Assembly (NCBI RefSeq): GCF_963675165.1
Contig: NC_087389.1
Coordinates: 3,780,830 to 3,844,829, forward strand
DNA: 64,000 nt
Source: Halichondria panicea
Taxonomy: Eukaryota > Porifera > Demospongiae > Suberitida > Halichondriidae
Reading direction: 5' to 3'
A program made the position numbers and the translations under genes. The notes beneath the pieces were generated by a model that was given only the letters and a program-made list of their open reading frames with translations, searched no databases and was not told where the DNA came from. Position 1 is the first letter of the stretch, and each line of letters starts with the position of its first letter. Below are positions 1 through 64,000 of this stretch, one piece after another.

Positions 1-192
1 TTATATGATTGTTGCTTTATAGATTCACGATCATTCCCCATAATGTTAAGATCATTACGATAAAAAGTAAATCGCATGTCTGTTATGTCAACACACAGGG
101 TGAATGCTCTCCGAGCATCTTGTTTCGAGAATAATCGTATGATGTACATGCAGTGTATCCAGACTATCTATATACCACAAATTGTTGATGAG

Positions 193-349
193 TACCGTAT
201 GTATAGCGGGTTATTTTCGTATGGTGGATTTTTTGTATTTCGTAATTAATTATTTTTCTGCAATAGGTTCAACGTCCTGCACTATCCTGACTGTACGAAT
301 ACTTAAAATACGAATGGGTAGTTCATAAAAAAATTACCCCTATACGGTA
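193..349. mobile_element. Short inverted-repeat element (MITE), TACCGTAT ends
   Basis: The left end reads TACCGTATGTATAGCGGGTT and the right end is a near inverse (AAAATTACCCCTATACGGTA). The element is about 157 bp with no coding capacity. It sits in the 3' flank of A1 and is present at the same place in all four units, so it predates the array. Related ends occur at 21548-21708 in exportin-5 intron 4. Confidence 0.7.
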
Positions 350-543
350 CTTGTACTTAGTGCTGCTGATCATATGATCTCCAGCCAATCAGCTTGTATA
401 TAGTCACCTGACCATAACTTAATAATGCACGCTATGAAGTAACAATTAAAATAAATGTAGCCATAGAAAACGGGGTTCTATAAATATCTAATGTATCGTG
501 ATACTATTGTTACATTAATTGCTTATGATCACTATCGATAAAC

Positions 544-633
544 TAGCCTCGATCCCAGGCCGAGTTTTCGCTTTTATAACGGTTAGGCAAACAACCGTTA
601 TAAAAGCGAAAACTCGGCCTGGGATCGAGGCTA
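544..633. mobile_element. Perfect 41-bp foldback element with 9-bp target duplication
   Basis: Two perfect 41-bp inverted arms (544-584 and 593-633) flank an 8-bp loop. The element begins TAGCCTCGATCCCAGGCCGA. TCGATAAAC occurs on both sides, and the other three units have the empty site with one TCGATAAAC (for example near 26045). This is therefore a 90-bp insertion that made a 9-bp target duplication, the size typical of Mutator-like transposases. It is present only in unit 1. Confidence 0.85.
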
Positions 634-668
634 TCGATAAACATGCAGTGGTTTAGATGCTGTAGAAT

Positions 669-2423
669 TCAATCCACAAAGTTAGACAATGATGCAAATC
701 TGTTCTGAGTAGGGATTGAATATTGTAATCGAACAGCATGGGCTTGGCGAACAGGTTCGACTGGTGCATCCGGGAGAAGCTCTTTTGTTATTGCATTGTA
801 CATAATCCTCCCTTCTTCGTCAAGCATTGAGTAGAGAGGATTGGGTAAGTTCACGAAAAATTTTTGAAATACTGTTGCAGAGAACATACGACCCAGGCTT
901 GTGTAGGTAAAAGGGCAGCCGAGGATCTGGTTGAAAGTATTGGCAAGGTGAAGCATGCATTCCCATTGAGCTAAGTAGTGGATCCGATCAAGAGCCTTCA
1001 TTTGGTTACGGCAATCCTTAATTTCATCACTGCCTTTACAGAGACACTTTTGAAGGCAGAGAACAAGAGCCAAAATGAAAGCCTTGAATCGATGGTCCAC
1101 ACTTGAGTGAATAGCCATCAGCCAACACCGGCTTGCAACTACTGCTAATTTCAGATCTTCAGAGACATTCTCCAATTCCGCTGAAATTTGTTTGCACTGA
1201 AATACACGTAAAACGATGTCTCTTCGTTTTATTTTGGGCATATCAGGAATATTCAACAAATTGTGTGATCCAAGAATCTCTAAATGCTTCTCATTGAGCA
1301 AGGAGGAAATGTTGTGTTCTTCTAATTTACACAGCGATTTTTGCCTGACCCTCACAATAATTTCAGGGATACTGCCACTTTCATAGCAACTAATGAGAGC
1401 ACCAATAGCATACAGAAGAACCGAATTGGTCACTTTCCAAGCAGACTCTCTCTTTATATCTTCAACAACTAGTATATAATTCCAGATTTTGCTCCCCTTC
1501 AGAATATGGCCTACCAAGAAATGCATTACATTGCGCGAAAACTCTCCTCTTTTGAAACGAGATACAATCCACTGAGGGACTGATGTACTAAATGCTGAGT
1601 GTTGAGACAGGTCTTCAAATGAATGAGGGACAACTTCATAAAACTTACGATCACTAGCGAGTTCTCCTTGATAATCATCAATGTTTAAAGAGGAGTTATT
1701 AAGCTTTTCAACTATTAACTCTACTTTAGCCTCCTGATCAATTCCTAGCTCAGGTAGTGCATGGCGACTGTGAAAGTCGTTGCCAAGACAGTATGGTAAG
1801 AAAAGGCGGATTTGAGGGTGGCTAAAGTTGCATGTTCGATCAAATTTCTGATAGTGAAAATACTGCACCTCTGTTTTAAGGTCTTGTAAATTGTGCGGTA
1901 TGAGAATCAGTCCGTGGTTTATGTTAAAAATGAAGAAATCCGAGTCCAAGCCTAAGACGGGACAGCCAAGATGATTTGCAAGTGACACCACATCTCGATC
2001 AGCTTCACCATCGGCAACAAAGAACCTAGCCCCAATGGTTTTACGAACAGCATCGACAAACACAACTTTTGCCAGATTAGGAACAATCATCTCGTTCTTT
2101 TTAAGCTGTTCAATCTGAGATTTGGCCCTACTCATCATCCTAAGCCGCTGTAAAACTCGATCATCACTAGTTGCTGCCTTTTCATTTTCATAATCAATAC
2201 CATCGACTACCACATAGGCCTCGATTCCGATAGACTTTAGCATTGTAAAGAAATCTAGAACCTTCTCATAAAACTCACAATAATCACCCCATCCAATTCC
2301 ACAAAACAGTTGATAGGACAAGCTAAATCCATCAATGACAATCCTACTGGAAACTTTTCTCAGGGTTACAGACTCGAAGTGCCCCTTCTCGTTCATGTAG
2401 GTGGTTAAGGTCCGAATTCCCAT
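669..2423 (-). CDS. Asteroid-like (ASTE1-type) PIN/XPG-fold nuclease, paralog A1, intact
   Basis: Predicted 584-residue protein from a single uninterrupted exon. I start at the ATG giving MGIRTL, the usual XPG/FEN1-type N-terminus; upstream in-frame codons offer only TTG. The expected metal ligands are visible: D31 (VIDG), D74 (VVDG), E140 and D142 (ADGEAD), D160 and D162 (LDSDFF), and D216 (LGNDFH). Residues 1-230 form the PIN/XPG core; the rest is the family-specific C-terminal region, ending in a tail (PVEPVRQA, QNRFASLS) shared with gene C. Family knowledge: human ASTE1 is longer (near 680 residues) and is reported to act as a structure-specific nuclease in DNA break repair. Which substrate this copy uses is unknown. 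The gene is intronless while the neighbouring exportin-5 is highly split, which fits an old retrocopy origin. It differs from A4 at about 16 residues. Confidence 0.85.
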   Translation of the reverse strand: MGIRTLTTYMNEKGHFESVTLRKVSSRIVIDGFSLSYQLFCGIGWGDYCEFYEKVLDFFTMLKSIGIEAYVVVDGIDYENEKAATSDDRVLQRLRMMSRAKSQIEQLKKNEMIVPNLAKVVFVDAVRKTIGARFFVADGEADRDVVSLANHLGCPVLGLDSDFFIFNINHGLILIPHNLQDLKTEVQYFHYQKFDRTCNFSHPQIRLFLPYCLGNDFHSRHALPELGIDQEAKVELIVEKLNNSSLNIDDYQGELASDRKFYEVVPHSFEDLSQHSAFSTSVPQWIVSRFKRGEFSRNVMHFLVGHILKGSKIWNYILVVEDIKRESAWKVTNSVLLYAIGALISCYESGSIPEIIVRVRQKSLCKLEEHNISSLLNEKHLEILGSHNLLNIPDMPKIKRRDIVLRVFQCKQISAELENVSEDLKLAVVASRCWLMAIHSSVDHRFKAFILALVLCLQKCLCKGSDEIKDCRNQMKALDRIHYLAQWECMLHLANTFNQILGCPFTYTSLGRMFSATVFQKFFVNLPNPLYSMLDEEGRIMYNAITKELLPDAPVEPVRQAHAVRLQYSIPTQNRFASLSNFVD

Positions 2424-4819: not shown

Positions 4820-5115
4820 CCTATATATCCAATTACCCAATAACAATTGTTTACTCAACCTTAATCATGGAAACATTTTTGGATACATGCACTGTAGCTT
4901 ATTCATTCACCTATACACATGCACTGGTATCAAATCAGCACATTTTCTTAGAAATTTACATTTAAGTACAACTACTCACATATATTTTTTGGTATGGTTT
5001 ATATATACTCTCTATGGACTGGATGCACTTGTACACATTACACATTTTTTGGTTTTACTTTCACAACAGTCTCTTCTTACTAGGTATAGTCTTGCATGAG
5101 AGCAGCATAGGTTTA

Positions 5116-5690
5116 ACAAACAGGTTCTACTTGTGAGGAGAATTTCTTTTGTTATCGCTTCGTACATACAAGCACTTCGAAGTCCAACCTTGTATGAACG
5201 CCTGGACCGCTTGTAAAAAATAAGTGAAATACTGTTGCTGAGAACATTCGGCCCAGACTATAGTGTAGGTAAATGGATAGTTTGGGATTTGATTGAATGA
5301 ACGCAAGGTTCCACTGTGCTAAATAGTGGATTCGGCAAAGGTGAGTCATTGAATGTTCTCGGTGTTATCCTGCTTCATCAATCTGTCGAGCTCCACTACA
5401 CGTTTGAAAGTAGAAAACTAGAGGTGAAATGAAAGCCTCGAAATTATAATCAATATTGTGAATAATATTTTTCAGCCAGCATCGGCTCACAATTACCACT
5501 AACTTCAGCTTTTCTGAAATGTTTTTCCAAAGTCTTTGAAACCGATTTGCAGTGAAATACTCGCAAAAGAATTTTCTCTCTATCTATAGTAGTAGGGGCA
5601 TATCAGAGATCGTTTGTAGGTCATGTGACCTGAGTATACTTAAATGCTTTGATGAGAGGTTGATTTCATTATCCACAAGTGCACACTAGC
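5116..5690 (-). pseudogene. Pseudogene D1, C-terminal part of a decayed Asteroid-like gene
   Basis: Minus-strand sequence aligned with the 3' half of gene A. It covers the region encoding the C-terminal tail (near 5125-5170), the QW-containing segment (near 5300-5345) and the preceding block up to about 5650. Small deletions and frameshifts break it throughout. The matching 5' half lies 5.5 kb to the right (11195-12105). The last 90 bp or so (5600-5690) is repeated at 11198-11300, so the gene C segment is bracketed by a direct repeat of D sequence. In units 2 and 3 the two halves are contiguous. Confidence 0.75.
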
Positions 5691-6730: not shown

Positions 6731-8464
6731 CTAAGACAGCTGAGCAAACCTATTCTGAGTTACAATTGCTTGCGGTCTGGGAGCACGTACAACTTGGGCT
6801 TGACGAACAGGTTCAACTGGTGCGTCAGGGAGTAGTTTTTTCGTTATTGCATCGTAGATATCTCTAGTACCTTCTTCGTCAAGTTTAGAATCGAGAGAGT
6901 CGGGTTGGCTCGTAAAAAAATTCAGAAATACTGTCGTAGAAAACAGATGACCAAGACTCGTGTAGGGAAAAGGAGAGCCGAGGATTTGATTAAAATCAAT
7001 CACTAGGTGCATCATGCATTCCCACTGAGCTAAGTGGTGGATCCTGCGAAGGCGTCCCATTTCATTTGGAGGAATTTCAAACTCGGATCTAGATCTAGAA
7101 TAGCACGTGTGAAAGCAGAAAACTAGTGCAAGAATGAAAGCCTTGAATTGATGATCAATGCTGTGAATGACGCTCTTTAACCAACATCTGCTAGCAACTA
7201 CTGCTAACTTCAGCTCGTCTGGAATTTTCCGTAGCGTCTTACACACAGACTTGCAGTGGAAGACTCGTAAAAGGTTCATCTCACGATCTTCCGAGGGACA
7301 ATCTCGGATATTCAGCAAGTTAAACGAGCCAAGAATATTCCTGTGCCTATCTAACAGAGCAACTTTATTGGCTTCAAAATTATATGACTTTGGCTTGCGG
7401 CAAACTCGTACAGGAGGAGTTTCGCATCTTTCAAGGCTGAGCAGTGCACCAGCAATGAACGGAAAGACAGTATTCGTCACCTCTGAAGCGGATTCTTTAT
7501 TCACATCTTCGATGGCTATAGTGTAATTCCAGGTTTTGGTATCCTTGCTTGCAAGAAATCTCATTGAAATGTGCGAGAACTGGCCTACTTTAAATTGCAT
7601 TACGACCCACTCAGGGACTAAGGGGTTAAAACGACTTAAAAACCTAGACTGAGATAATTCTTCAAACGAGTGAGGGTCTACACGATAAAACTTGTAATCT
7701 TCTGCAACTGTGTTCTGGAAATCATCAAACTTCACTCTACCTTTAAGTTTCGAGACAACAGTTCCCACCGAAGCATATTTTTCAATCTGTAATTCAGGGA
7801 GAGCGTTGGAACCATGAAAATCATTTCCAACACAATAGGGTATCAGAAGACGAGCATCAGAACTGAGGTTGTAGGCAGAATCAAATGAATGATAAGTAAA
7901 GCAAGGCACTACTCCATGCAGATTCGTTACTCCACCTCTACCATCATCAATGGGAATGTACCCACCTTCAATGTTGAAAATCAAGTAGTCGGAATCAAAG
8001 CCAAATACAGGGCAACAAAGATGATTTGCAAGACGGACAACGTCCTGATCTGCTTCACCATCAGCGACAAAGTATTTCACTGAGGAATCACAAACAGCAT
8101 CTATAAACACGGTCTTGGCCATGAAAGAGATAACAATCTCAAAAGGTGAAAGCTCATCGACTCGAGAATCAATCTGCCACAATCTCTGAAGACGTTGTCC
8201 ATCTCTACGTCTGCTGGTTTCCAACTTTCTATTTTCACAGTCAACACCATCTATAACAACATACACTTTTATTTCACGATTCAAGTCTGAAAGATAAGCG
8301 GTAACCTTTTTATAAAATTGACAGTAATCTCCACTTTTAACTCCAAGATAAAGCTTATAGCACAAAGCATAGCCATCAATGACAATACTTGACATATTCC
8401 TGATATTTGTTTGCACAATACGATTTGTCTCCTTGATGTAGGAAGTTAGCTTTGGTATCCCCAT
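6731..8464 (-). CDS. Asteroid-like (ASTE1-type) PIN/XPG-fold nuclease, paralog C, intact
   Basis: Predicted 577-residue protein from one exon, starting at the ATG for MGIPKL. It is a distinct paralog, clearly closer to A than to B: it shares with A the C-terminal LLPDAPVEPVRQA and TQNRFAQLS blocks, but differs along the whole length. All metal ligands are present: D30 (VIDG), D72 (VIDG), E137 and D139 (ADGEAD), D157 and D159 (FDSDYL), D214 (VGNDFH). It is the only copy in the window and lies inside a 5.5-kb segment absent from units 2 and 3. A 54-bp piece of a C-type gene (coding for the EDVNKESA region) survives in every D pseudogene, so C-like genes were once present in all units. Intactness over 1.7 kb with conserved catalytic residues argues for a working protein. 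Its cellular role is not deducible here. Confidence 0.85.
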   Translation of the reverse strand: MGIPKLTSYIKETNRIVQTNIRNMSSIVIDGYALCYKLYLGVKSGDYCQFYKKVTAYLSDLNREIKVYVVIDGVDCENRKLETSRRRDGQRLQRLWQIDSRVDELSPFEIVISFMAKTVFIDAVCDSSVKYFVADGEADQDVVRLANHLCCPVFGFDSDYLIFNIEGGYIPIDDGRGGVTNLHGVVPCFTYHSFDSAYNLSSDARLLIPYCVGNDFHGSNALPELQIEKYASVGTVVSKLKGRVKFDDFQNTVAEDYKFYRVDPHSFEELSQSRFLSRFNPLVPEWVVMQFKVGQFSHISMRFLASKDTKTWNYTIAIEDVNKESASEVTNTVFPFIAGALLSLERCETPPVRVCRKPKSYNFEANKVALLDRHRNILGSFNLLNIRDCPSEDREMNLLRVFHCKSVCKTLRKIPDELKLAVVASRCWLKSVIHSIDHQFKAFILALVFCFHTCYSRSRSEFEIPPNEMGRLRRIHHLAQWECMMHLVIDFNQILGSPFPYTSLGHLFSTTVFLNFFTSQPDSLDSKLDEEGTRDIYDAITKKLLPDAPVEPVRQAQVVRAPRPQAIVTQNRFAQLS

Positions 8465-10955: not shown

Positions 10956-11194
10956 CTGGTACTATACTTTACATGTACTAGGTCTAGTCAAAGTCTGGTC
11001 TAGTCTACGTCTGTGTTGGACACTGAGGTTAGTTACTATATCAATGATGTATGTATAGAGTGCATTGTTTACATTTATACACATACAGTAGTCATAAAGT
11101 CGTAAGCAATTGATTGCAAATTGGAAGGACGGCACTAAGAGTGTTCACCACTTTACGAGTTGCTGCTCCAAGACATCTGTTTTTGAGAGAGCGG

Positions 11195-12105
11195 ATGTAT
11201 ATCATATTAGAGATAGTTTGTAGGTCATGTGACCTGAATATACTTAAATGCTTTAACGAGATCTAGAGGTTGATTTCATTGTCCACAGGTGAACACAAGC
11301 AGTCCTGCCGACTTTTCACAACAATGCTGGGGATCCTGTTCCTTTGATAGCAACTAAGCATGGAGCACCGATAAAATACAGAAGGACGGAATCAGTCAAT
11401 TTCCAAGCAGATTCTAATTTTAAATCTTCAACCACTAAGATATACTTTCAGATTTGTTTCCCCTTTAGAAGATCCACGGCCAAGAAATGCATTGCGGTAT
11501 GAGAAAATTCTCCTCTCTTGAAACGAGATACAATCCACTGAGGGACTGATGTATACTAAACGCTGAGTGTTGAGACATGTATTCAAAAGAACGGGGAACA
11601 ACTTCATAGAACTTACGATCACTAGCGAATTCTGCTTGATAATCATCAACGTTTAAAGAGAATGTTCTAAGCTTTTTAAAATATATAAGTATACTAGCTC
11701 TACTTTAGCATCTTGATCTATTCCTAGCTCAGGTAGTGCATGGCGACCGTGAAACATTTCCAAGACAGTACAGTAAGAAGAGGCAGATTTTCGGGTGGCT
11801 AAAGGTGAACTTTTGATCAAATTTTCGACAGTTAAAATACTTTATTTAAAAATTTTTGGGCATGACTATGATCAATAGAAAAAATCCGAGTCCAAACCTA
11901 AGCCAAGATGATTTGCAAGTGACACCACATCTCGATCAGCTGTTTCACGGACAGCATCAACAATTCCGTTCAATCTGAGATTCGACCTTACTCAACGCCT
12001 TAAGCCGCTGTAATACTCGATCGTTACTAGTTGCTGCTCTGTACAAAAATTAAGACAGTATTCATCACCTCTGAAGCAGAATCTTTAGTCACATCTTCGA
12101 TGGCT
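11195..12105 (-). pseudogene. Pseudogene D1, N-terminal part, with a C-type fragment at its 5' end
   Basis: Continuation of D1 after the gene C segment. It matches gene A from the middle of the coding region to near residue 90 (blocks equivalent to PQWIVSRFKR, GNDFH and the RVLQRL region), with many frameshifts and with the first 80 codons missing. At 12052-12105 it switches to sequence matching gene C (7462-7515) that codes for EDVNKESASEV, a region that belongs some 240 codons further along. The pseudogene is therefore a composite. It ends about 190 bp from the B1 start, so the two are head to head. Confidence 0.75.
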
Positions 12106-12294
12106 AACAATTGTAAATTAAAACTATCTGGCACAATAAATACACAATGGACGCTGAATAAGGAAAAAAGCAAAATAACAAGACAATGTATGTCTATAAG
12201 GTGCTATAAACCTAAGTTTATTCATTACTACACATCAGGTGACTATTTCGGATAACATAAATTGTTAATACACATTTATTATATTAACATCGAA

Positions 12295-14033
12295 ATGGGA
12301 GTACCCAAGTTGAAGAAGTTTGTGTCCAGTAGCAAAGGATGGTACACAATACAAGTGTCAGGCAAAGTAGTCATCGATGGCAACTCACTCTGCTATAATC
12401 TGAACAAACAGCATGAGTGGAAGTTTGGAGGTGATTACAAAGACTTCTATGAAACGGTTACAGTGTACATTCAAGAGCTCAAGGCATTAGAAATAGAGCC
12501 GTACATTGTGGTGGATGGTATGGCTCACGATAACAGCAAGTATCAGACGTACATAGCGAGAAACGAAGAGCGTATCAACGGAATTGCTATCAGCCAATCC
12601 CTAGGCACAGCACCACACAACATTGTTCGTCCACTGTTCATACATACTGTGTTTCTTGATGCACTGAGAGACTTGAAGACAAATTTCTTCATAGCAGACG
12701 GAGAGGCAAATCAAGATATTGCATCCCTTGCCAATAGTTTATCTTGCCCTGCCCTGTTATCAGCGAAGATTCAGACTTCTTCATTTTCAACATTGAAGCT
12801 GGCTACATACCATTGACAGGTGGTGACCAACAAACACGAATTGAGTTTCAAAAGCCAGTCAAACGATTTCAGCATAAAGAATTCGATAAAAGCTTAAAAC
12901 TGAACGAAGAACAGCGGCTGTTCTTTCCTTTTATCCTAGGCAATGACTTCCATAAGGGTGTTTCACGGTCCTCACTGCAATTAACCTTCAGCACACCACT
13001 CCGCAACATCTCAAGAAAACTATCAATGCTAGATTTCAGCAATGCAACTTTGACACAATTCGTTTGTCCGAACCCCACAAGCCAGATGGAAAATATCAAA
13101 TTGTACTACAGAGGGGCAGCTCGATCATTTGATGACCTTGCATCTACCAGTTCACTTCTGGAGTTGTATCCACACACCCAGGAGTGGATCATGCAAGAGT
13201 ACAAGAATGGTAGGTTCATGGCTCCAATAATGAGTCTTGCAACTTGCCCTACTATGAAGCGGTGGCGACACACCATAGTGGTTGAAGATTTCAGCCAACA
13301 AAGCGCGTGGAAGGTTACAAAATTTGGAAGAAAATTTATCATTGGGGCTTTACTTGGTGACCAAGCAAACAAGCATCAGATAGTGACAACCGAAATTAAG
13401 CCACCATCACCTGACAACTCAAAACTTGCATTGGTGGACACCGAAGTCATCTTAGCTCCAAAGCACACCACAATTCTACCTGTGCCACTAAAAGATGTTC
13501 CACAAATGCCAGTCACCGTTCGCAAGGAGATAATGTATCGTGTGTTTCACTATACCGAGCCTGCTGAGTCGGACATTCCTGAGGGGCTACAGTTAGCCAT
13601 GATTGCAAGGTGCTGCTGGGTACGTAAAGTAGCTTGCGACAATACACACCTGATTCAGTCACTCGTATGCTGTATTCTAACCTGCTACGGCCATTTTCCA
13701 ATGACTGATCGAAGAGACGGATGTAAGTTAGCTCAACATGAGATTCTGTTTTTTCTACACTCCTATGCTCAGTGGCAGTGTCTACTACATCACGTTATCG
13801 CGTTTAACCAAGTTCTAAGCCACCCCTTTCCATACACAAGCCCTGCTAGGCTATTCTCTTCAAGTTTACTTCTACACTTCTACCAGCAGACCTCACAGGT
13901 CCTACAAGAAAAGATGGACACATTGGCAACGAGTATGCTACAAATAATTACAGAGAGCAAGTATTCTACTGAAAGTTTGAAAGATATTGAACTAGAGCCT
14001 TCGCAGACAAAGAAACGTCGCACTACATACTGA
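12295..14033 (+). pseudogene. Asteroid-like paralog B1, frameshifted
   Basis: Copy of gene B with the same ATG (MGVPKL) and stop as B2 and B3, but 1739 bp long where they have 1734. A 5-bp duplication (GCCCT repeated at 12746-12755) shifts the frame at about codon 152, just before the DSD metal-binding motif, so the product would end soon after. The 3' part is otherwise open to the normal stop (12744-14033 in the second frame). The metal ligand equivalent to D139 is also changed, the motif reading DGEAN. Both lesions fit relaxed selection. The truncated N-terminal product would lack D157, D159 and D216 and could not be a normal nuclease. Confidence 0.85.
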
Positions 14034-17696: not shown

Positions 17697-18685
17697 AGGT
17701 ATAGCTGTACATAGTGTGAGTACACTATGTAAGAGTCAAAATAAATAACTTGGGTGCATTATAATTATGCTTCAACACTGCATGCACAAGTCGAATGTTT
17801 TATGCCGACTGCACTGCATGCAATAACATTACAGGTTACATATTTTTTATGACGTTATAATTATAAGCTTGTATGAAGTTAGATATAATCATGCAATTCA
17901 CTATCTCAATTCCTCAAAGGTGACTTGCATGCTTGTACGTGACTACAATCAACCAAAGTATGTCTGGAGACAGCTTATCAGAGGTCCTGTGTCAACTATA
18001 ATATTATTACTCGATCTGCGGCATAGTCCATGAGTCACATGAAGCACAACAATTCCAACCACATCAATTTCAACACAATTCACATACTGTACATCTTAAT
18101 GCCTATATATATAATAAGCAACTAAAAACTTGGATTAAAATCACTTAGTGGGACAATCGCTTCAAGTGCATTGGTTCACATACCAACGTTATAGCAGCAC
18201 AAGCAAGGAGTAGAGAATAAGTAGTCACTACGTCCCAACTAAATTCGGACATATAGTGCTACGTAAAGCAAATGCATATTCACCTTGCCCAGGTTCAAGT
18301 TTCTTCTGGACCATCTGCTCAGTGACGGTGAGAGCTTCACTTATATGTAATGTACATTTGCAAGTTAGTGCTGCACATACAATACAGTAAGCTTCATGTA
18401 CAATACAATTACCACACAGTTAGGGTTTAGATAAACAGTATGCTTACTCGCAAAGAAGAGCATAAAGTCATCCGCCCCATCAAAGTCCAGACGGGAATAC
18501 TCTGAACTGACATGGTCGTACACATCAGGGTCACCCACCTACAATACATGCAGGGCAAGCACAAGAGTTATATCAGTATAATTATATGTGAGCAGTTCTA
18601 TAACTTTGTGATAATCCAGTGGCATATATGATTAGTAGGCATGGGAAAAAGGGGCTGGTGCAGTATTAAAAACTTGGGGTGTCCA

Positions 18686-18992
18686 TAGTCTCGAATACCA
18701 GCCGGTTCTCATTGTAGCGTGGGAGGGAGAGAACCGTCTGGTTACTCTGGGCATACTTTTCTGTCCTCGGACGGAATGTTGGTAGAGTATATTCATTGGA
18801 GCCTTACCCGCAAGAATGTAACATAGCTTTCAAGAATATAACAGTTTTATTTAGTGCGCACTAAATTGTGGGTTATTATCACGTGATTAACAGGATGATC
18901 ACATTCCTGACTGACAGAACGCTCCGCCCAGAGTAACCAGACGGTTCTCTCCCTCCCACGCTACAATGAGAACCGGCTGGTATTCGAGACTA
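18686..18992. mobile_element. Foldback MITE, 67-bp inverted ends, 9-bp target duplication
   Basis: Perfect 67-bp inverted ends (starting TAGTCTCGAATACCAGCCGG) enclose a 170-bp interior. GGGTGTCCA flanks both sides, a 9-bp target duplication as made by Mutator-like elements. It lies in exportin-5 intron 10. Units 2 and 3 carry it at the same site. Confidence 0.85.
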
Positions 18993-21547: not shown

Positions 21548-21708
21548 TATCGTATAGCGGGTAATTTTGGTCGACAAGCTGACTTCCTTTTCCCCACGAA
21601 AACGTAAAGTGTGATTCACCGCAACGCAGTGCAGGCAATGCAATTTTTTACTTAAGAAAATTAGTGAAACGAATTTTTTACCCCATGAAAATTACCCGCT
21701 ATACGGTA
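21548..21708. mobile_element. MITE with CGTATAGCGGGTAATTTT ends, exportin-5 intron 4
   Basis: The left end TATCGTATAGCGGGTAATTT is the near inverse of the right end AAAATTACCCGCTATACGGTA, read without its first base. It is 161 bp and noncoding. The same insertion is at 39682-39842 and 57613-57773. Confidence 0.75.
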
Positions 21709-23022
21709 CTTAAATGGAAGCTGTTAATTGGCTAAAACAAACTGTGTACATAATTTTAGTGTGCTAGTGTAACATCACATTTCTCCCCTACACCCATACA
21801 CACAACAGAATCACTACAATTTCAGTGCATAAAGCAATAATTATACGAGTGTAAAGACTAAAGATTATCTTACCCCACACTTTGAGACAGTCCCCAAGTC
21901 AGTGATAAACGAATCCCATCTCTGCGGCCACATCTTTTTGGCTGTTTCCACGGTGACCCTAGCCAGAGCCTCCTTAACGAAAGTGGGCTCTTGATCATAA
22001 GGAAGGAGTTTCTGCAGCATGAAAGAGAAGGAGTTGTAGTGCAGTTGAGAAGCACTGACATGATATAATTAGAGTAAAACATCAGCTAGGACTGCATGGA
22101 TACAACACACAATGTTGCAGGAGCGTAGCCATCATTTTTTGAAGGGGACAAAAAGCGGTCGTAAAGTGACTGTTTACCAGCCGCGCAGCACCAGAAATGT
22201 TGACAGGAAGCCATGCTTCTTAATATGATGTCATAATTTACTTATATACCTAGTTGGGTGTGGCCCGATGTTCTATTTGCGCAGGCTAAGAACGAGAGCT
22301 AGTCTATAGATTTCGACCAGAATAGCTCACAGTTTAGAGACTACATGTAAATCGTTTTACTTGCCACTAGCTAGCTAACTGCAGCCATACTTGGACCTGT
22401 GGATTATCCCCATACTTGCAAGTCTTACTTACCCAGACATCCAATCAGTGGTTCAGCCATACATCTGAGTATCCCTTAAATTACCTGGGATCTTCCCCTA
22501 ATGTGCATGCATGTATCCAAGTTACCTAGACCATCCGGCTTCCCGCATGGTCTGTCCATGCACCTATAGCCCTTGCGTCTGTACCAAAAGTTATCCAAAC
22601 CATCCAGGATCTTCCTGGACTATTCTACCCTGACTACAGTAAGACAAGGAAGAAAAGGGGGTGCTCAGCTAGATAAAACTAGAGCACTAAAGTGCAAACC
22701 CTCAGCTGGTGACATGATAATACAGAAACCAGAGGAGTGATAATGATGCAGTGCATGTAGCATGTATGACTAGTACAGCAACTCAAGGAGCAATAAAACT
22801 AAACTAACAACTGAGGCACGCACTGTGGACTGGGATCACAGCAAAGAAGCCTGGAGTCTTAGACTTAGAGAAGTATGGCTCCTGCCAGGCTGGAGAGTAG
22901 GATCCAGAGCTAGCTAAGAATCAGTCAACAGCAGCAACAACAACCAACCCAGGCCAGTCACAATTCTACTTTGACCCTATTCAATTGTTCCTGGTACGGA
23001 TCACTTCAGCAGCAAATACCTA

Positions 23023-23243
23023 TACCGTACGGGTAGAAAATTTCGAGGGTGTAAATTTTCGTGCAATTCAATATTCTGTCTTATTTGGAAAATTTCGCGG
23101 GTAGTAAATTTCGTGGAGTTAGGGTGTGTCACTATCTCGCATGCGTAAACAAAGCCTTTCGCGGGTTTTAATTTTCGTGTTCTGCAGCCACCCACGAAAA
23201 ACGCGAAATTAAAAACACCTCGAAATTTTCTACCCGTACGGTA
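23023..23243. mobile_element. MITE with TACCGTACGGGTAGAAAATT ends, exportin-5 intron 3
   Basis: The left end TACCGTACGGGTAGAAAATT continues as TCGAGGGTG and is matched in inverse at the right border. The interior repeats the word AAATTTCG / CGAAATT. It is 221 bp. The same insertion is at 41166-41386 and 59088-59308. The minus-strand open frame over it is a by-product. Confidence 0.8.
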
Positions 23244-44220: not shown

Positions 44221-45977
44221 TCAATCCACAAAGTTAGACAATGATGCAAATCTGTTCTGAGTAGGGATTGAATATTGTAATCGAACAGCATGGGCTTGGC
44301 GAACAGGTTCGACTGGTGCATCCGGGAGAAGCTCTTTCGTTATTGCATTGTACATATTCCTCCCTTCTTCGTCAAGCATTGAGTAGAGAGGATTGGGTAA
44401 GTTCACGAAAAATTTTTGAAATACTGTTGCAGAGAACATACGACCCAGGCTTTTGTAGGTAAAAGGGCAGCCGAGGATCTGGTTGAAAGTATTGGCAAGG
44501 TGAAGCATGCATTCCCATTGAGCTAAGTAGTGGATCCGATCAAGAGCCTTCATTTGGTTACGGCAATCCTTAATTTCATCACTGCCTTTACAGAGACACT
44601 TTTGAAGGCAGAGAACTAGAGCCAAAATGAAAGCCTTGAATCGATGGTCCACACTTGAGTGAATAGCCATCAGCCAACACCGGCTTGCAACTACTGATAA
44701 TTTCAGATCTTCAGAGACATTCTCCAATTCCGCTGAAATTTGTTCGCACTGAAATACACGTAAAACGATGTCTCTTCGTTTTGTTTTGGGCATATCAGGA
44801 ATATTCAACAGATTGTGTGATCCAAGAATCTCTAAATGCTTCTCATTGAGCGAGGAAGAAATTTTTCGTTCTTCTAATTTACACAGCGATTTTTGCCTGA
44901 CCCCCACAATAATTTCAGGGATACTGCCACTTTCATATAGCAACTAATGAGAGCACCAATAACATACAGAAGGACCGAATTGGTCACTTTCCAAGCAGAC
45001 TCTCTCTTCATATCTTCAACAACTAGTAGATAATTCCAGATTTTGCTCCCCTCCAGAATATGGCCTACCAAGAAATGCATTACATTGCGCGAAAACTCTC
45101 CTTTTTTGAAACGAGATACAATCCACTGAGGGACTGATGTACTAAATGCTGAGTGTTGAGACAGGTCTTCAAATGAACGAGGGACAACTTCATAAAACTT
45201 GTGATCACTAGCGAGTTCTGTTTGATAATCATCAATGTTTAAAGAGGAGGTACTAAGCTTTTCAACTATTAACTCTACTTTAGACTCTCGATCAATTCCT
45301 AGCTCAGGTAGTGCATGGCGACCGTGAAAGTCGTTGCCAAGACAGTATGGTAAGAAAAGGCGAATTTGAGGGTGGCTAAAGTTGCATGTTCGATCAAATT
45401 TCTGATAGTGAAAATACTGCACCTCTGTTTTAAGGTCTTGTAAATTGTGCAGTATGAGAATCAGTCCATGGTTTATGTTAAAAATGAAGAAATCTGAGTC
45501 CAAACCTAAGACAGGACAGCCAAGATGATTTGCAAGTGACACCACATCTCGATCAGCTTCACCATCGGCAACAAAGAACCTAGCCCCAATGGTTTTACGA
45601 ACAGCATCGACAAACACAATTTTTGCCAGATTAGGAACAATCATCTCGTTCTTTTTCAGCTGTTCAATCTGAGATTCAGCCCTACTCAACATCCTAAGCC
45701 GCTGTAAAACTCGATCGTCACTAGTCGCTGCCTTTTCATTTTCATAATCAATACCATCGACTACCACATAGGCCTCGATTCCGATAGATTTTAGCATTGT
45801 AAAGAAATTTACAACTTTCTCATAAAACTCATAATAATCACCCCATCCAATTCCACAAAACAATTTATAGGGCAAGCTAAATCCATCAATGACAATCCTA
45901 CTGGAAACTTTTCTCAGGGTTACAGACTCGAAGTGCCCCATCTCTTTCATGTAGGCGGTTAAGGTCCGAATTCCCAT
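44221..45977 (-). pseudogene. Asteroid-like paralog A3, same 2-bp frameshift as A2
   Basis: Identical in translation to A2 in both open segments and broken by the same AT insertion (near 44936). The 346-residue N-terminal segment keeps every metal ligand of the PIN core. Being identical over 1.75 kb while A1 and A4 differ by about 16 residues, A2 and A3 are either very young duplicates, recently homogenised, or an assembly duplication. Confidence 0.8.
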
Positions 45978-48734
45978 GATCAACAATCGATACAGCAATT
46001 AAGTTCACAAAAACTTCCTGTCAGTGAATTATCTTGGCCCACAATACACTACTTGAACACAGTCAGTTTTTGTATAGCTGTAGAGATCTAATGCACCATT
46101 AGCTGTGATCGCCAAAGCAGCAGTGAAATGAAACTAAATTCACTGACCGATAATTATAATACAAAACTGGCTACTACCTATACGGGGAAAAACAATCCCT
46201 GAAATTTTGAAAACCACCATATAAGTACTTATATAATAGTATTTGTTCGTTATATAAAAGAGCATTCTTAGAGGCCGTGACATGCAATAAAATAACACAA
46301 ATGGTCATACGATCATATGACATATTAAAGCATCCACCCACACCGATTGTAAGGTTTGTCTTGTGACAGCTGGTGTCTTATTACAACAAATACCTATTGT
46401 AAGGTTTGTCTTGTGACAGCTGGTGTCTTATTACAACAAATACCAGAGTATCCAAATTTGAATAAATTTGTGTCAAGCTTCAGTTGAGGGGATTAGTAAA
46501 ATGTGTACTTAATTTTCCACTCTCTCTTCCATAGGCAACTTTACTGTCACCTTGTTGACTGAGTATACAAGGAATAAAACATGGATGGCATGGATCATGA
46601 TGACAGCATGTAAATATCAGAAATAGAGCTCGAGAAAGAGTCAGCCAAATATTTAAGTATACAAGAAAACTTATAAAATAGTTACTATATATAACTATAG
46701 TCACCAACCTTAGCATTGTCTAGATTCCCCTCTACCAAATCATCGGACATTATGATGGGTACATTCAATGATGTGTGGATGATTCTGCTGTATACTGTCA
46801 CCTAGGTGGATGAACAACAGATGCTGAGTGCATAGTAGTGTTGTATGAACATTATGGACTAGTTGGACAATACACCCAGATGTACAACTCGATCAAGTGT
46901 ACTCATTTTCATTGTTTAATAGCTATGACGTTCTCAGAACAATCAGAGGTGAAAATGCATGCTTTACACTTCACATTAAGAACAACTCACCACTTGAGGA
47001 GCTCAGCATTAGTGTTCCAGTTCAACACTCGAGGAATGCGACCAGACCCTCCCACTCTATGTACAACATGGAACTCCGACTGCACTCTGCATGCATGCGT
47101 ATATAATACAATACTCACATTAACATTGTGCACATTTCAAGATGTCTTGACCAAAGTCTAGAGCTTATAAGCATTACCAGGTCTGAGGAGTGCATTCTTA
47201 CAGCTAGGTTCTGGGAAATCATGCATAAGGTCAAAATCAGCAATAGACTACTGTAGAAACACATCATTCTTGGAATTGTGAATACCATTTAATAGTACCC
47301 ACACCACAAAAAAGCCCATTGACTTCAAAGGAGACAGCCTGACAAAGTCTTACTGAAAAATGGGAGTCAAAAAGCTGAGCACCTATAATTCTACAAGTTA
47401 ATTTATTCTACTACCTTCAAAACCTCCTTCAAAACCAACGAACTGTCTCGAGAAGCTCAACGATTGTATGATTCTGTGTCTGTGTAATATTAGATCCACC
47501 CTTAACCCGTTACAAACTTAACTTCAATTGTTCATGTAGAAATTTCTTCTGTTCAGCTACAACCGTATATATACAACCCCTTTTCGAATTACGAATCTAC
47601 AGATGTATAGAATGCTAATTGATACAGTCATGCAATGCTACTTTGTTTCTTTCAATACTTTATTGTTATGTGTTGGCTGGACCATTATTTGCCATTTTTC
47701 GGCCTTGGACCATGGGCTATAATCCGTGGTAAGGCAAAATTGCTATCCCTCAAATAGGTGATACCATTGAAAGGTGGCAATTACTTTTGAAATACACTCG
47801 AGGCAGGACAGAGTGAAATTTAGTGATAGGCACACCAATAGCCTGAATTACATGCAGCTTAGTGTCCAAGCTTCATGAAAATTAATGCGTTTGTTTAGGC
47901 AAAATCACATGTTTACCCTATTTCCGTGTATCAAATGTGTGCTGTGAGAGTATCATTCGCTGATACACAAAGATTAATACACAGTCATGTACAGTGCATG
48001 CATCCAGTAGAATACCACAAATGTGTGAGTAGTTGTACTTAAATGTATCTTAACTAAGAAATTGCACTGATACCATTGTGTAAGTGAATGAATATATAAA
48101 GCTATTCAAAAATATTTCCCCAAAAGTTGTTAGTTGTTATTGTGAGAAATCAAAAACGGGGTGATCGTAAAAAAAATATGTGTAACATCAATTATATTTG
48201 GAACTAAAGTATTTTTGGGACAATTTTTTCTTATCAAAAGTTAGAAAATTTATTTAAACTTAATAATGTTTGGACCCTAGCCGTAAGATCTTCTTCAAAT
48301 CTCTCCCTAACCGAAACGGAAAACTAGCAATTTTGAGCACTGCAAAGGATGTGTAGACATGTACGCAACATTGAACTTTTACATAATTATAGCCGAACTA
48401 TCTATAGATGTTGTGAAAGTTCCAAACCTTAACCGGAAACCATTGGCCTTTTCTCTCCCTATCCGATTACCCAATAACAATTGTTTACTCAACCTTAATA
48501 CATTTTTGGATACCCTGTAGCTTATCATTCACCTATACACATGCAGCACTAGTATCAGCACATTTTCTTAGAATGGTTAGATATTTACATTTAAGTACAA
48601 CTACTCACATATTTGTGGTATATAGTTTATACTCTCTATTGGATGCACTGTACACAATACACATTTTTTGGTTTCACTTTCACAACAGTCTCTTCTTACT
48701 AGGTATAGTCTTGGGAGGGGCATAGGCTTAACAA
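45978..48734. other. 5' flank of A3 and spacer to D3
   Basis: Nearly identical to 27835-30589, including the 50-bp tandem duplication (46346-46445) and the same decayed exon-like blocks. No intact gene is seen. Confidence 0.4.
46346..46445. repeat. 50-bp tandem duplication in the A3 5' flank
   Basis: Same two-copy repeat as 28203-28302. Confidence 0.9.
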
Positions 48735-50008
48735 ACAGGTTCAACTTGTGAGGAGAAGTTCTTTCGTTATCGCTTCGTACATACAAGCACCTTCGAAGTC
48801 AAACCTTGTATGAACGCCTGAACCACTTGTAAATCGAGCCATTGAGGGTTCTTGGTAATGTCCCGCTTCATCAATCTGTCAAGCTCCCCTACACGTTTGA
48901 AAGCAAAAAACTATAGTGCTGAAATGAAAGCCCCAAAATTATAATCAACATTGTAAAATTTTCAGCCAGCATCGGCTTGCAATTACCGCTAACTTCAGCT
49001 TTTCCCAAAGTCTTTGAAATTGATTTGCAGTGAAATACACGTAAAATAATTTTCTCTCTATCTAGTAGGGGCATATCAGAGATAGTTTGTAGGTCATGTG
49101 ACCTGAGTATACTTAAATGCTTTAACGAGATCTAGAGGTTGATTTCATTGTCCACAGGTGAACACAAGCAGTCCTGCCGACATTTCACAACAATGCTGGG
49201 GATCCTGTCCCTTTGATAGCAACTAAGCAGAGCACCGATAAAATACAGAAGGACGGAATCAGTCAATTTCCAAGCAGATTCTAATTTTAAATCTTCAACC
49301 ACTAATATATACTTTCAGATTTGTTTCCCCTCTAGAAGATCCACGGCCAAGAAATGCATTGCGGTATGAGAAAATTCTCCTCTCTTGAAACGAGATACAA
49401 TCCACTGAGGGACTGATGTACTAAACGCTGAGTGTTGAGACATGTATTCAAAAGAACGGGGAACAACTTCATAGAACTTACGATCACTAGCGAGTTCTGC
49501 TTGATAATCATCAACGTTTAGAGAGGATGTTCTAAGTTTTTTAAATACTAGCTCTACTTTAGCATCTTGATCTATTCCTAGCTCAGGTAGTGCATGGCGA
49601 CCGTGAAAGTCATTTCCAAGACAGTACAGTAAGAAGAGGCAGATTTTCGGGTGGCTAAAGGTGAACTTTTGATCAAATTTTCGACAGTCAAAATACTTTA
49701 TAAAAATTTTCGGGCATGACTATGATCAATAGAAAAAATCCGAGTCCAAACATAAGCCAAGATGATTTGCAAGTGACACCACATCTCGATCAGCTGTTTC
49801 ACGGACAGCATCAACAATTTAAACACTACTTTTGCCAGAGTAGGAACAATCACCTCGTTCTTATTAAGCCGTTCAATCTGAGATTTGACCTTACTCAACC
49901 CCTTAAGCCGCTATAAAACTCGATCGTTACTAGTTGCTGCTCTGTACAAAAATTAAGACAGTATTCATCACCTCTGAAGCAGAATCTTTAGTCACATCTT
50001 CGATGGCT
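48735..50008 (-). pseudogene. Pseudogene D3, decayed Asteroid-like gene with extra deletion
   Basis: Counterpart of D2. About 155 bp present in D2 (30690-30830, the LAQWECMLHL region) is deleted at about 48832. The 5' end has the same C-type fragment (to 50008). It is head to head with B3. Confidence 0.75.
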
Positions 50009-50175: not shown

Positions 50176-51909
50176 ATGGGAGTACCCAAGTTGAAGAAGT
50201 TTGTGTCCAGTAGCAAAGGATGGGACACAATACAAGTGTCAGGCGAAGTAGTCATCGATGGCAACTCACTCTGCTATAATCTGAACAAACAGCATGAGTG
50301 GAAGTTTGGAGGTGATTACAAAGAGTTCTATGAAACGGTTACAGTGTACATTCGAGAGCTCAAGGCATTAGGAATAGAGCCGTACATTGTGGTGGATGGT
50401 ATGGATCACGATAACAGCAAGTATCAGACGTACATAGCGAGAAACGAAGAGCGTATCAACCGAATCGCTATCAGTCAATCCAGGGGCACTACACCACATA
50501 ACGTCGTTCGTCCGTTGTTCATACATACTGTGTTTCTTGATGCACTGAGAGACTTGAAGACAAAATTCTTCATAGCAGACGGAGAGGCAGATCGAGATAT
50601 TGCATCCCTTGCCAATAGTTTATCTTGCCCTGTTATCAGCGAAGATTCAGACTTCTTCATTTTCAACATTGAAGCTGGCTACATACCATTGACAGGTGGT
50701 GACCAACAAACACGAATTGATTTTCAAAAGCCAGTCAAACGATTTCAGTATAAAGAATTCGATAAAAGCTTAAAACTGAACGAAGAACAGCGGCTGTTCT
50801 TTCCTTTTATCCTAGGAAATGACTTCCATAAGGGTGTTTCACGGTCCTCACTGCAATTAACATCACGCACACCACTCCACGACATCTCAGAAAAACTAGC
50901 AATGCTAGATTTCAGCAATGCAACTTTGACACAATTCGTTTGTCCGAACCCCACAAGCCAGATGGAAAATATCAGATTGTACTACAGAGGGACAGCTCGA
51001 TCATTTGATGACCTTGCATCTACCAGTTCACTTCTGGAGTTGTATCCACACACCCCAGAGTGGATCATGCAGGAGTACAAGAATGGTAGGTTCATGGCTC
51101 CAATAATGAGTCTTGCAACTTGCCCTACTACAAAGCGGTGGCGACACACAATAGTAGTCGAAGATTTCAGTCAACAAAGCGCGTGGAAGGTTACAAAAAT
51201 TGGAAGAAAATTTATCATTGGGGCTTTACTTGGTGACCAAGCAAACAAGCATCAGATAGTGACAACCGAAATTAAGCCACCACCACCTGACAACTCAAAA
51301 CTTGCATTGGTGGACACCGAAGTCATCTTAGCTCCAAAGCACACCAAAATTCTACCTGTGCCACTAAAAGATGTTCCACAAATGACAGTCACCGTTCGCA
51401 AGGAGATAATGTATCGTGTGTTTCACTATACAGAGCCTGCTGAGTCGGACATTCCTGAGGGGCTACAGTTAGCCATGATCGCAGGGCGCTGCTGGGTACG
51501 TAAAGTAGTTTGCGACAATACACACCTGATTCAGTCGCTCGTATGCTGTATTCTAACCTGCTATGGCCATTTTCAAATGATTGATCGAAAAGACGGATGT
51601 AAGCTAGCTCAACATGAGATGCTGTTTTTTCTACACTCCTATGCTCAGTGGCAGTGTCTACTACATCACGTTATCGCGTTTAACCAAGTTCTAAGCCACC
51701 CCTTTCCATACACAAGCCCTGCTAGGCTATTCTCTTCAAGTTTACTTCTACACTTCTACCAGCAGACCTCACAGGTCCTACAAGAAAAGATGGACACATT
51801 GGCAACGAGTATGCTACAAATAATTACAGAGAGCAAGTATTCTACTGAAAGTTTGAAAGATATTGAACTAGAGCCTTCGCAGACAAAGAAACGTCGCACT
51901 ACATACTGA
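50176..51909 (+). CDS. Asteroid-like (ASTE1-type) PIN/XPG-fold nuclease, paralog B3, intact
   Basis: 577 residues, single exon, same start and stop as B2 and nearly identical to it. All seven metal ligands (D28, D74, E137, D139, D157, D159, D216) and the SQTKKRRTTY tail are kept. The striking difference is a 56-bp stretch (50460-50515, codons 95-114) with about 16 substitutions against B2, changing NGIANSQSLGTAPRNI to NRIAISQSRGTTPHNV, in an otherwise near-identical gene. This lies between the two halves of the PIN core, in a region that in FEN1-like enzymes shapes substrate access (family knowledge, position approximate). It looks like a conversion tract from an unseen paralog. Confidence 0.87.
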   Translation: MGVPKLKKFVSSSKGWDTIQVSGEVVIDGNSLCYNLNKQHEWKFGGDYKEFYETVTVYIRELKALGIEPYIVVDGMDHDNSKYQTYIARNEERINRIAISQSRGTTPHNVVRPLFIHTVFLDALRDLKTKFFIADGEADRDIASLANSLSCPVISEDSDFFIFNIEAGYIPLTGGDQQTRIDFQKPVKRFQYKEFDKSLKLNEEQRLFFPFILGNDFHKGVSRSSLQLTSRTPLHDISEKLAMLDFSNATLTQFVCPNPTSQMENIRLYYRGTARSFDDLASTSSLLELYPHTPEWIMQEYKNGRFMAPIMSLATCPTTKRWRHTIVVEDFSQQSAWKVTKIGRKFIIGALLGDQANKHQIVTTEIKPPPPDNSKLALVDTEVILAPKHTKILPVPLKDVPQMTVTVRKEIMYRVFHYTEPAESDIPEGLQLAMIAGRCWVRKVVCDNTHLIQSLVCCILTCYGHFQMIDRKDGCKLAQHEMLFFLHSYAQWQCLLHHVIAFNQVLSHPFPYTSPARLFSSSLLLHFYQQTSQVLQEKMDTLATSMLQIITESKYSTESLKDIELEPSQTKKRRTTY

Positions 51910-61317: not shown

Positions 61318-61764
61318 GGCATGCACTCACTGTCTAGATTTATAATAATATTGATACATAAAATTTGCATACTTTAGTATAATAATACATGCACACTGTT
61401 TTAATTGATGAGCCTATTATTAACAGTGAATTATGTCCCTCATTCCAAACAGCACCTACCCCATCATACTACAACCTTCTTCGTTCTATACACCAGCCAT
61501 CCTACCCTATGGTGTAAACCAAAATGGTTCCTGAGATATCGTCCAATGATGGCTGAACAATCCAGTGTAAGACATGCATGCACGTACCCCACTGTTAGAA
61601 GGTGACAAAAACACTGTTTTATATGATTGTTGCTTTATAAAAAGTAAATCGCATGTCCGTTATGTCAACGCACAGGGTGAATGCTCTCCGAGCATCTTGT
61701 TTCGAGAATAATTGTACGATGTACATGCAGTGTATCCAGACTATTACCACAAATTATTGATAAG

Positions 61765-61922
61765 TACCGTATATATAGCGGGTTATTTTCGTATGGTGGA
61801 TTTTTTGTATTTCGTAATTAATTATTTTACTGCAATAGGTTCAACGCCCTGCACTATCCTGAGCTGTACGAATACTTAAAATACGAATGGGTAGCTCATA
61901 CAAAAATTACCCCTATACGGTA
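61765..61922. mobile_element. MITE with TACCGTAT ends, unit 4 copy
   Basis: Orthologous to 193-349. Confidence 0.7.
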
Positions 61923-62142
61923 CTTGTACTTAGTGCTGCTGATCATATGATCTCCAGCCAATCAGCTTGTATATAGTCACCTGACCATAACTTAATAATG
62001 CACGCTATGAAGTAACAATTAAAATAAATGTAGCCATAGAAAACGGGGTTCTATGAATATCTAATGTATCGTGATACTATTGTTACATTAATTGCTCATG
62101 ATCACTATCGATAAACATGCAGTGATTTAGATGCTGTAGAAT

Positions 62143-63897
62143 TCAATCCACAAAGTTAGACAATGATGCAAATCTGTTCTGAGTAGGGATCGAATATTGT
62201 AATCGAACAGCATGGGCTTGGCGAACAGGTTCGACTGGTGCATCCGGGAGAAGCTCTTTCGTTATTGCATTGTACATAATCCTCCCTTCTTCGTCAAGCA
62301 TTGAGTAGAGAGGATCGGGTAAGTTCACGAAAAATCTTTGAAATACTGTTGCAGAGAACATACGACCCAGGCTTGTGTAGGTAAAAGGGCAGCCGAGGAT
62401 CTGGTTGAAAGTATTGGCAAGGTGAAGCATGCATTCCCATTGAGCTAAGTAGTGGATCCGATCAAGAGCCTTCATTTGGTTACGGCAATCCTTAATTTCA
62501 TCACTGCCTTTACAGAGACACTTTTGAAGGCAGAGAATTAGAGCCAAAATGAAAGCCTTGAATCGATGGTCCACACTTGAGTGAATAGCCATCAACCAAC
62601 ACCGGCTTGCAACTACTGCTAATTTCAGATCTTCAGAGACATTCTCCAATTCCGCTGAAATTTGCTTGCACTGAAATACACGTAAAACGATGTCTCTTTG
62701 TTTTATTTTGGGCATATCAGGAATATTCAACAAATTGTGTGATCCAAGAATCTCTAAATGCTTCTCATTGAGCGAGGAGGAAACGTTGCGTTCTTCTAAT
62801 TTACACAGCGATTTTTGCCTGACCCTCACAATAATTTCAGGGATACTGCCACTTTCATAGCAACTAATGAGAGCACCAATAGCATACAGAAGGACCGAAT
62901 TGGTCACTTTCCAAGCAGACTCTCTCTTCATATCTTCAACAACTAGTAGATAATTCCAGATTTTGCTCCCCTTCAGAATATGGCCTACCAAGAAATGCAT
63001 TACATTGCGCGAAAACTCTCCTCTTTTGAAACGAGATACAATCCACTGAGGGACTGATGTACTAAATGCTGAGTGTTGAGACAGGTCTTCAAATGAATGA
63101 GGGACAACTTCATAAAACTTACGATCACTAGCGAGTTCTCCTTGATAATCATCAATGTTTAAAGAGGAGTTATTAAGCTTTTCAACTATTAACTCTACTT
63201 TAGCCTCCTGATCAATTCCTAGCTCAGGTAGTGCATGGCGACCGTGAAAGTCGTTGCCAAGACAGTATGGTAAGAAAAGGCGAATTTGAGGGTGGCTAAA
63301 GCTGCATGTTCGATCAAATTTCTGATAGTGAAAATACTGCACCTCTGTTTTAAGGTCTTGTAAATTGTGCGGTATGAGAATCAGTCCGTGGTTTATGTTA
63401 AAAATGAAGAAATCCGAGTCCAAACCTAAGACGGGACAGCCAAGATGATTTGCAAGTGACACCACATCTCGATCAGCTTCACCATCGGCAACAAAGAACC
63501 TAGCCCCAATGGTTTTACGAACAGCATCGACAAACACAACTTTTGCCAGATTAGGAACAATCATCTTGTTCTTTTTAAGCTGTTCAATCTGAGATTTGGC
63601 CCTACTCAACATCCTAAGTCGCTGTAAAACTCGATCATCACTAGTTGCTGCCTTTTCATTTTCATAATCAATACCATCGACTACCACATAGGCCTCGATT
63701 CCGATAGATTTTAGCATTGTAAAGAAATCTAGAACCTTCTCATAAAACTCACAATAATCACCCCATCCAATTCCACAAAACAGTTGATAGGACAAGCTAA
63801 ATCCATCAATGACAATCCTACTGGAAACTTTTTTCAGGGTTACAAACTCGAAGTGCCCCTTCTCGTTCATGTAGGTGGTTAAGGTCCGAATTCCCAT
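62143..63897 (-). CDS. Asteroid-like (ASTE1-type) PIN/XPG-fold nuclease, paralog A4, intact
   Basis: 584 residues, single exon, start at MGIRTL. It lacks the AT insertion of A2 and A3 and is closest to A1 (about 16 residue differences, among them E to K near residue 111 and S to G after the NDFH motif). All metal ligands are present: D31, D74, E140, D142, D160, D162, D216. Its 3' flank lacks the 41-bp foldback element of unit 1. With A1 it is one of two complete A genes, at the two ends of the visible array, while the two inner copies are broken. Confidence 0.87.
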   Translation of the reverse strand: MGIRTLTTYMNEKGHFEFVTLKKVSSRIVIDGFSLSYQLFCGIGWGDYCEFYEKVLDFFTMLKSIGIEAYVVVDGIDYENEKAATSDDRVLQRLRMLSRAKSQIEQLKKNKMIVPNLAKVVFVDAVRKTIGARFFVADGEADRDVVSLANHLGCPVLGLDSDFFIFNINHGLILIPHNLQDLKTEVQYFHYQKFDRTCSFSHPQIRLFLPYCLGNDFHGRHALPELGIDQEAKVELIVEKLNNSSLNIDDYQGELASDRKFYEVVPHSFEDLSQHSAFSTSVPQWIVSRFKRGEFSRNVMHFLVGHILKGSKIWNYLLVVEDMKRESAWKVTNSVLLYAIGALISCYESGSIPEIIVRVRQKSLCKLEERNVSSSLNEKHLEILGSHNLLNIPDMPKIKQRDIVLRVFQCKQISAELENVSEDLKLAVVASRCWLMAIHSSVDHRFKAFILALILCLQKCLCKGSDEIKDCRNQMKALDRIHYLAQWECMLHLANTFNQILGCPFTYTSLGRMFSATVFQRFFVNLPDPLYSMLDEEGRIMYNAITKELLPDAPVEPVRQAHAVRLQYSIPTQNRFASLSNFVD

Positions 63898-64000
63898 GAT
63901 CAACAATCGATACAGCAATTAAGTTCACAAAAACTTCCTGTCAGTGAATGATCTTGGCCACACACACTACTTGAACACAGTCAGTTTTTGTATAGCTATA

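Follow-up and report, generated by a model that had tools for sequence, protein, structure and literature searches.

We describe here a tandem array on contig C13 of the Halichondria panicea genome in which single-exon, putative Asteroid/XPG-type nuclease genes alternate with the front half of the exportin-5 gene. The window, meaning the whole 64,000-base stretch presented, is C13:3780830-3844829, and coordinates without a contig prefix are window coordinates. It was analysed together with its flanks (C13:3715830-3884829, 169,000 bases), and genome searches, in which the best candidates only were scored, covered the 131.5-Mb, 39-contig assembly. Self-comparison of the window revealed direct repeats with a period of about 18 kb; positions 18338-30694 and 36496-48833 are 98.8% identical across 12.4 kb, and another repeat pair in the array is 99.4% identical across 6.7 kb. 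With the flanks included, the repeated region covers about 117 kb of C13 and runs on in both flanks, so the array is real, as the original prediction had it, larger than the window, and has both window ends inside it. From left to right, a unit reads A, then D or P, then B, then an exportin-5 front half, where A, B and D are the nuclease-like genes and P is a broken relative of A. The whole array holds six front halves (c1 to c6), seven copies of B and six of A, plus the broken A-like genes. Three of the front halves (c3, c4 and c5) fall in the window, as does the start of a fourth unit (A5 at 62143-63897). The features of the window are as follows.

669..2423, minus strand: A2, predicted Asteroid/XPG-type gene, intact single-exon ORF of 584 aa
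3446..3544, minus strand: E13', exon-13-like exportin-5 copy with small indels
5092..5685, minus strand: P2, 3' part of a broken A-like gene, split by the D-bearing insert
6731..8464, minus strand: D2, predicted Asteroid/XPG-type gene, intact ORF of 577 aa; the insert occurs once in the window
11191..11943, minus strand: P2, 5' part of the broken A-like gene (other part at 5092..5685)
12289..14033, plus strand: B3, predicted Asteroid/XPG-type gene, frameshifted by a 5-bp insertion relative to B4
18448..25119, minus strand: c3, exportin-5 front half, exons 11-1
26081..27837, minus strand: A3, frameshifted by a 2-bp insertion, the identical lesion occurring in A4
28858..28944, minus strand: E13', degraded exon-13 copy
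30611..31794, minus strand: P3, broken A-like gene
32198..33931, plus strand: B4, predicted Asteroid/XPG-type gene, intact, 577 aa
36355..43262, minus strand: c4, exportin-5 front half, exons 12-1, splice sites kept where resolved
44224..45980, minus strand: A4, frameshifted by a 2-bp insertion
47001..47087, minus strand: E13', degraded exon-13 copy
48973..49943, minus strand: P4, broken A-like gene
50176..51909, plus strand: B5, predicted Asteroid/XPG-type gene, intact, 577 aa
54362..61182, minus strand: c5, exportin-5 front half, exons 12-1, no lesion seen
62143..63897, minus strand: A5, predicted Asteroid/XPG-type gene, intact, 584 aa

Four units in the order A, D, B, exportin-5 had been predicted for the window. 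The order holds, but the window has three front halves rather than four, and D does not recur in each unit: an intact D occurs once in the window, and the other units carry P. The front halves are spaced 17.1-18.2 kb apart except for c2 and c3 (24.8 kb), in whose spacer the D-bearing insert splits P. This segment (5932-8606), which lies inside the P pseudogene, is 92% identical in opposite orientation to C13:3871058-3873773, right of the array. Both D genes are open, and the differences between them are almost neutral (dN/dS 0.89 in that pair). The spacer behind B gave seven matches in the genome search, all on C13. The gap between A and the exportin-5 start codon is about 230 bases in c1 and c6 and about 960-1060 bases in c2-c5, the latter four carrying at least some 730 additional bases between A and exon 1 that are absent from c1 and c6. 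Within exportin-5 intron 10, a 305-bp segment of c5 (54861-55165) runs opposite to its counterparts in c3 (18683-18987) and c4 (36837-37141), to which it is 98% identical once inverted; it is imperfectly palindromic and possibly a small inverted-repeat element.

The exportin-5 identity first proposed for the repeated fragment is borne out by PDB and Pfam matches. A single front-half exon matched exportin-5 in the PDB at E=2.8e-5 and exportin-T at E=0.012. Eleven exons were modelled, followed by a twelfth, with AG/GT borders across the six copies and two exceptions, the exon 10 acceptor of c6 and the start of exon 6 (the exon 5/6 junction is uncertain). Exon 12 lies 126 bases behind exon 11 in c1, is in phase and is kept in five of the six copies; the PDB alignment, with E=3e-19 for the whole query, spans exon 8 into exon 12. 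The exon 11 and exon 12 donors are kept in all six copies and the exon 12 acceptor in five. An unguided scan for the next exon did not rank exon 12: the best score of the real query (27) was below those of all eight shuffled queries (28-36), and the exon 12 stretch was the best match of a shuffled query. Support for exon 12 comes from its phase, position, conservation and PDB alignment; an end of the front half at exon 11 was considered and rejected on the phase, conservation and alignment. In genome searches, all 48 matches of the animal's own front-half exons fell in the array, and all 30 matches of a human front half fell in the six array copies. The Xpo1 model, used as a control, gave 24 matches, 14 in the array and 10 elsewhere on five contigs.

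For the nuclease-like genes, B4 exceeded the Pfam cut-offs for PF12813 (XPG_I_2, 27.4 bits against 24.2) and PF00867 (XPG_I, 26.2 against 24.9), and A and D gave XPG-type matches below cut-off only. In the PDB, B4 alone found no clear nuclease, its best XPG/FEN1 match having E=0.77; a profile of seven proteins from this genome had exonuclease 1 (E=2.9e-11) as its sole match at E up to 0.1. Six acidic residues of B4 (D28, D74, E137, D139, D157 and D159) are in register with exonuclease 1 and invariant in all seven aligned proteins, two pairs of which are near-identical. We take these to be the catalytic positions of the FEN/EXO1 family, the seventh of which falls at D216. Structure prediction for B4 by itself and for B4 together with four other window proteins gave models of too low a quality to be used (mean pLDDT 33.6 and 36.3). 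An NCBIfam search gave nothing credible in any of three proteins, and searches for relatives in wider genome and viral contig collections returned 245 and 38 pattern matches, none of them confirmed.

B, A and D can be classed on these matches as Asteroid/XPG-type genes whose products are putative nucleases. Like Asteroid/ASTE1, of the XPG/FEN superfamily, they show matches to XPG_N and XPG_I_2 (some below cut-off) and acidic residues in the exonuclease 1 register; unlike Asteroid/ASTE1, they form a local cluster of single-exon genes. The genome search with B placed 34 of 36 matches on C13 and that with A 45 of 46. One relative lies outside the cluster, at C10:3298571-3300394, with an open frame of 607 aa; the XPG_I_2 profile gave eight genome matches, including a short one on C9. 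ASTE1 and fly ast appear in a table of nucleases (PMC11574390). The Asteroid phrase occurred in no paper among the literature matches listed for an Asteroid-type expansion in sponges, and searches on exportin-5 in sponges and on ASTE1 returned nothing useful. Six of the seven B copies are open, with dN/dS of 0.18-0.35 in 14 of 15 pairs and 0.07 in one (the pairs are not independent); three of the six A copies are open and three frameshifted, with dN/dS of 0.39-0.44 in three pairs.

The back half of exportin-5 was found once, at C13:3736731-3743672, immediately left of the array. It lies on the same strand as the front halves, its exons are in order and collinear, and it ends in a stop codon; the array therefore sits inside the exportin-5 gene. 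The back half was initially missed because the genome-wide search was too insensitive for short, diverged exons. The PF19273 profile found no match in the genome (at E up to 10, five matches, all of them array front halves), and a human back half gave one match elsewhere at E=8.5 and missed the sponge back half. Searching the left flank under laxer settings returned 328 matches; among the best 15, eight lay on the minus strand in strictly descending order, a chain spanning human residues 493 to 1159, and with the reversed bait the best 15 formed no such chain. Since this search revealed the back-half exons in order, an exportin-5 gene absent from the genome or present only in fragments was rejected. 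The joined back-half exons matched exportin-5 (E=3.1e-12) and nothing else in the PDB at E up to 1. A genome search with the same exons gave 18 matches, every one on C13: the back half accounts for 13, and the other 5 are exon-13-like copies in the array.

When c1, the leftmost front half, was joined to the back half, the product matched PF19273 (Exportin-5) at 5.7e-40 in a single stretch across the junction, PF03810 (IBN_N) at 5.9e-6 and PF08389 (Xpo1) at 1.4e-25, and the phases of the exon 12 end and the exon 13 start match. Judged from its sequence, the pair is apparently one whole exportin-5 gene with Asteroid/XPG-type genes nested in intron 12. The exon model lacks the counterpart of human residues ~815-950 (~135 residues). 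The gene is like exportin-5 in the three Pfam models that it matches; unlike exportin-5, it has an intron 12 of ~12.6 kb with four Asteroid-type genes or remnants inside, and its front half is repeated five times without the back half. The co-amplification noticed originally, with Asteroid-type genes physically multiplied alongside the exportin-5 5' part, stands, but the free-standing combination then envisaged does not, as the rest of exportin-5 adjoins the array. Amplification took in the 5' part because the nuclease-like genes lie within and next to exportin-5 itself.

A segment of the units is matched collinearly by the left flank between the exon 14 edge and gene X2, exon 13 included; identity is mostly 67-81%, rising to 89% in short blocks. 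In the five aligned exon-13 copies, homology breaks just inside exon 14; small indels are present in all five and a stop codon in four. The front halves c2-c6 have no back-half HEAT repeats, and a degraded exon 13 copy is all that is found, beside five of the six units; neither the genome search nor the flank comparison found an exon-13 copy in the unit right of A5. As homology stops inside exon 14, the extra units are 3'-truncated exportin-5 copies with their nested genes.

In all five internal B regions the left side resembles B7 and the right side B1/c1. Over the left flank and the first 1.1 kb of B they differ by 0-5% from B7, except for one B5 window equally distant from B7 and B1 (14 and 13 of 250), and over the same part by ~10-50% from B1. 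Starting 3.65 kb beyond the B start, the difference from c1 is mostly 0-3.5% (one window 6.7%; B2 and B3 comparable over part of the stretch), and there B7 has no homology. In the zone between, B1 and B7 themselves are ~1-9% apart. Internal repeats that are chimeric between the end repeats, the mark of a tandem array made by NAHR, are thus present in five of five B regions. On these comparisons, the internal B copies are chimeras of the two end copies, as would result from out-of-register pairing of the end blocks with an exchange in the zone common to both. Such chimeras are the signature of unequal crossing-over between direct repeats.

The close likeness of some units (12.4 kb at 98.8%, 6.7 kb at 99.4%) is what would be expected if haplotypes, or a shorter array, had been wrongly laid end to end in the assembly, but such an artefact is very unlikely. 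The 169 kb contain no N; the introns of the front halves differ by 0.4-6% among copies, and units have private lesions and a private insert. Genome searches turned up one back half and, on other contigs, no copy of the array, the single distant gene on C10 being all that was added. The B copies, moreover, are chimeric between the two ends.

The array is like a tandem segmental duplication made by NAHR in that direct repeats flank the block and internal repeats are chimeric between the end copies, and like NAHR partial gene copies in that an apparently whole copy of the cut gene lies at the edge and truncated copies lie inside. It is unlike the usual NAHR duplication in that the nuclease-like genes on the flanking repeats are themselves located inside the cut gene; given that nested position, the same events copied the front of the host gene and the nested genes together.

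We consider it probable (roughly 0.85) that an exportin-5 locus with nested nuclease-like genes underwent a partial duplication and then amplification by NAHR, with the extra front halves carried along as passengers. The starting locus would have been exportin-5 (XPO5), transcribed leftwards, with single-exon Asteroid/XPG-type genes in intron 12 and gene A just upstream. Long ago, part of the locus would have been duplicated in tandem, with the break just inside exon 14, which put a second set of exon 14 start, exon 13 and nested P and B upstream of exportin-5. The homologous end blocks may then have misaligned, and unequal crossing-over (NAHR) would have multiplied everything between them, giving the six front halves (exons 1-12), six A and seven B. 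Sequence divergence suggests two time steps, the old partial duplication (~20-25%) and a recent amplification (0.4-6% in introns). Facing the sole back half, c1 would be best placed to be spliced in the ordinary way and expressed as a whole protein, and the other front halves would be passengers truncated at the 3' end, most of them in decay. Coding constraint persists on gene B and, more weakly, on A, so that extra dosage of nuclease genes would be the likeliest selected product, if any.

The coding state of the front halves fits passengers in most cases. No lesion was seen in c1 or c5, and four of the five extra front halves carry at least one. In c2, a 1-bp deletion in exon 6 causes a frameshift. 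The start codon is changed from ATG to AAG in both c3 and c4; c3 has also lost 1 bp at the exon 6 edge and over half of exon 12, including its acceptor. The exon 10 acceptor is lost in c6. The exon 7 donor of c6 has also lost 7 bp, which was rejected as a lesion, since one of two identical 7-bp units is gone and a donor remains.

Across exons 1-11 of the six front halves 30 codons vary, 17 synonymously and 13 not; ten codons where the exon 6 edge is uncertain, and two with gaps, were excluded, and the lost start codon is among the 13. With 23% of changes expected to be silent and transition bias ignored, the binomial p against equal rates is 7e-5. The extra front halves have therefore not simply drifted. 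The ratio points to constraint at some stage of their history, through use of a copy or through repeated exchange with c1; it is the main point against pure passenger status and leaves some room for use of a front-half copy.

The nucleases and exportin-5 N-terminal proteins might instead have been co-amplified as a functional unit acting together, for example in small-RNA processing or export. The order is constant between units, c5 is free of visible lesions, and amino-acid changes among the front halves are fewer than expected under equal rates. The position, however, follows from nesting in the exportin-5 gene; damage is seen in four of the five extra front halves, half of the six A copies are frameshifted and the P copies are broken; and the end of the amplified block is set by homologous end blocks, not by gene ends. 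We regard a functional unit as extremely unlikely. The link between nucleases and small-RNA export that had been suggested finds little support, given the lesions in four of the five extra front halves and a structure explained by unequal crossing-over. The composite unit is best explained as a consequence of nested genes copied with the front of their host gene, which needs no functional tie, and the most fitting role for the front half is that of a passenger, with no nuclease/RNA-export unit to be assumed.

At UGT1-type loci, multiple 5' cassettes are each spliced over a long distance to one shared back part. Several front halves used in turn in this way, with splicing to the sole back half, would agree with the presence of six front halves and a single back half, all on one strand and correctly ordered, with exon 11 and 12 donors kept in six of six copies and the exon 12 acceptor in five of six, and with lesion-free c1 and c5. 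Such use is highly improbable here, as the same-strand A genes between cassettes should end transcripts, c3 and c4 have no modelled start codon, c3 lacks over half of exon 12 with its acceptor, c6 lacks the exon 10 acceptor and c2 is frameshifted. Use of at least one upstream front half, with c5 the best candidate, either as a 5' cassette or as a truncated exportin-5 of ~480 residues that tunes small-RNA export, is very unlikely. A truncated product of the c5 type would presumably keep the N-terminal, Ran-binding part and act by competition. If this were so, nested nuclease genes would have created a multi-cassette exportin-5 locus.

Under the passenger reading, which we prefer, nested genes would have turned a conserved host gene into a target for recombination, with one apparently whole copy surviving at the edge. 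Most exportin-5-like models at the locus would then be truncated duplicates, a caution for annotation. The locus would also allow one to study a possible interference of such half-copies with small-RNA export. Outside the array, frames resembling ubiquitin carboxyl-terminal hydrolases and nucleotide cyclases were recognised by eye left of exportin-5 (C13:3731756-3735236), as was an N-acetyltransferase-like frame to the right (C13:3877495-3878172).
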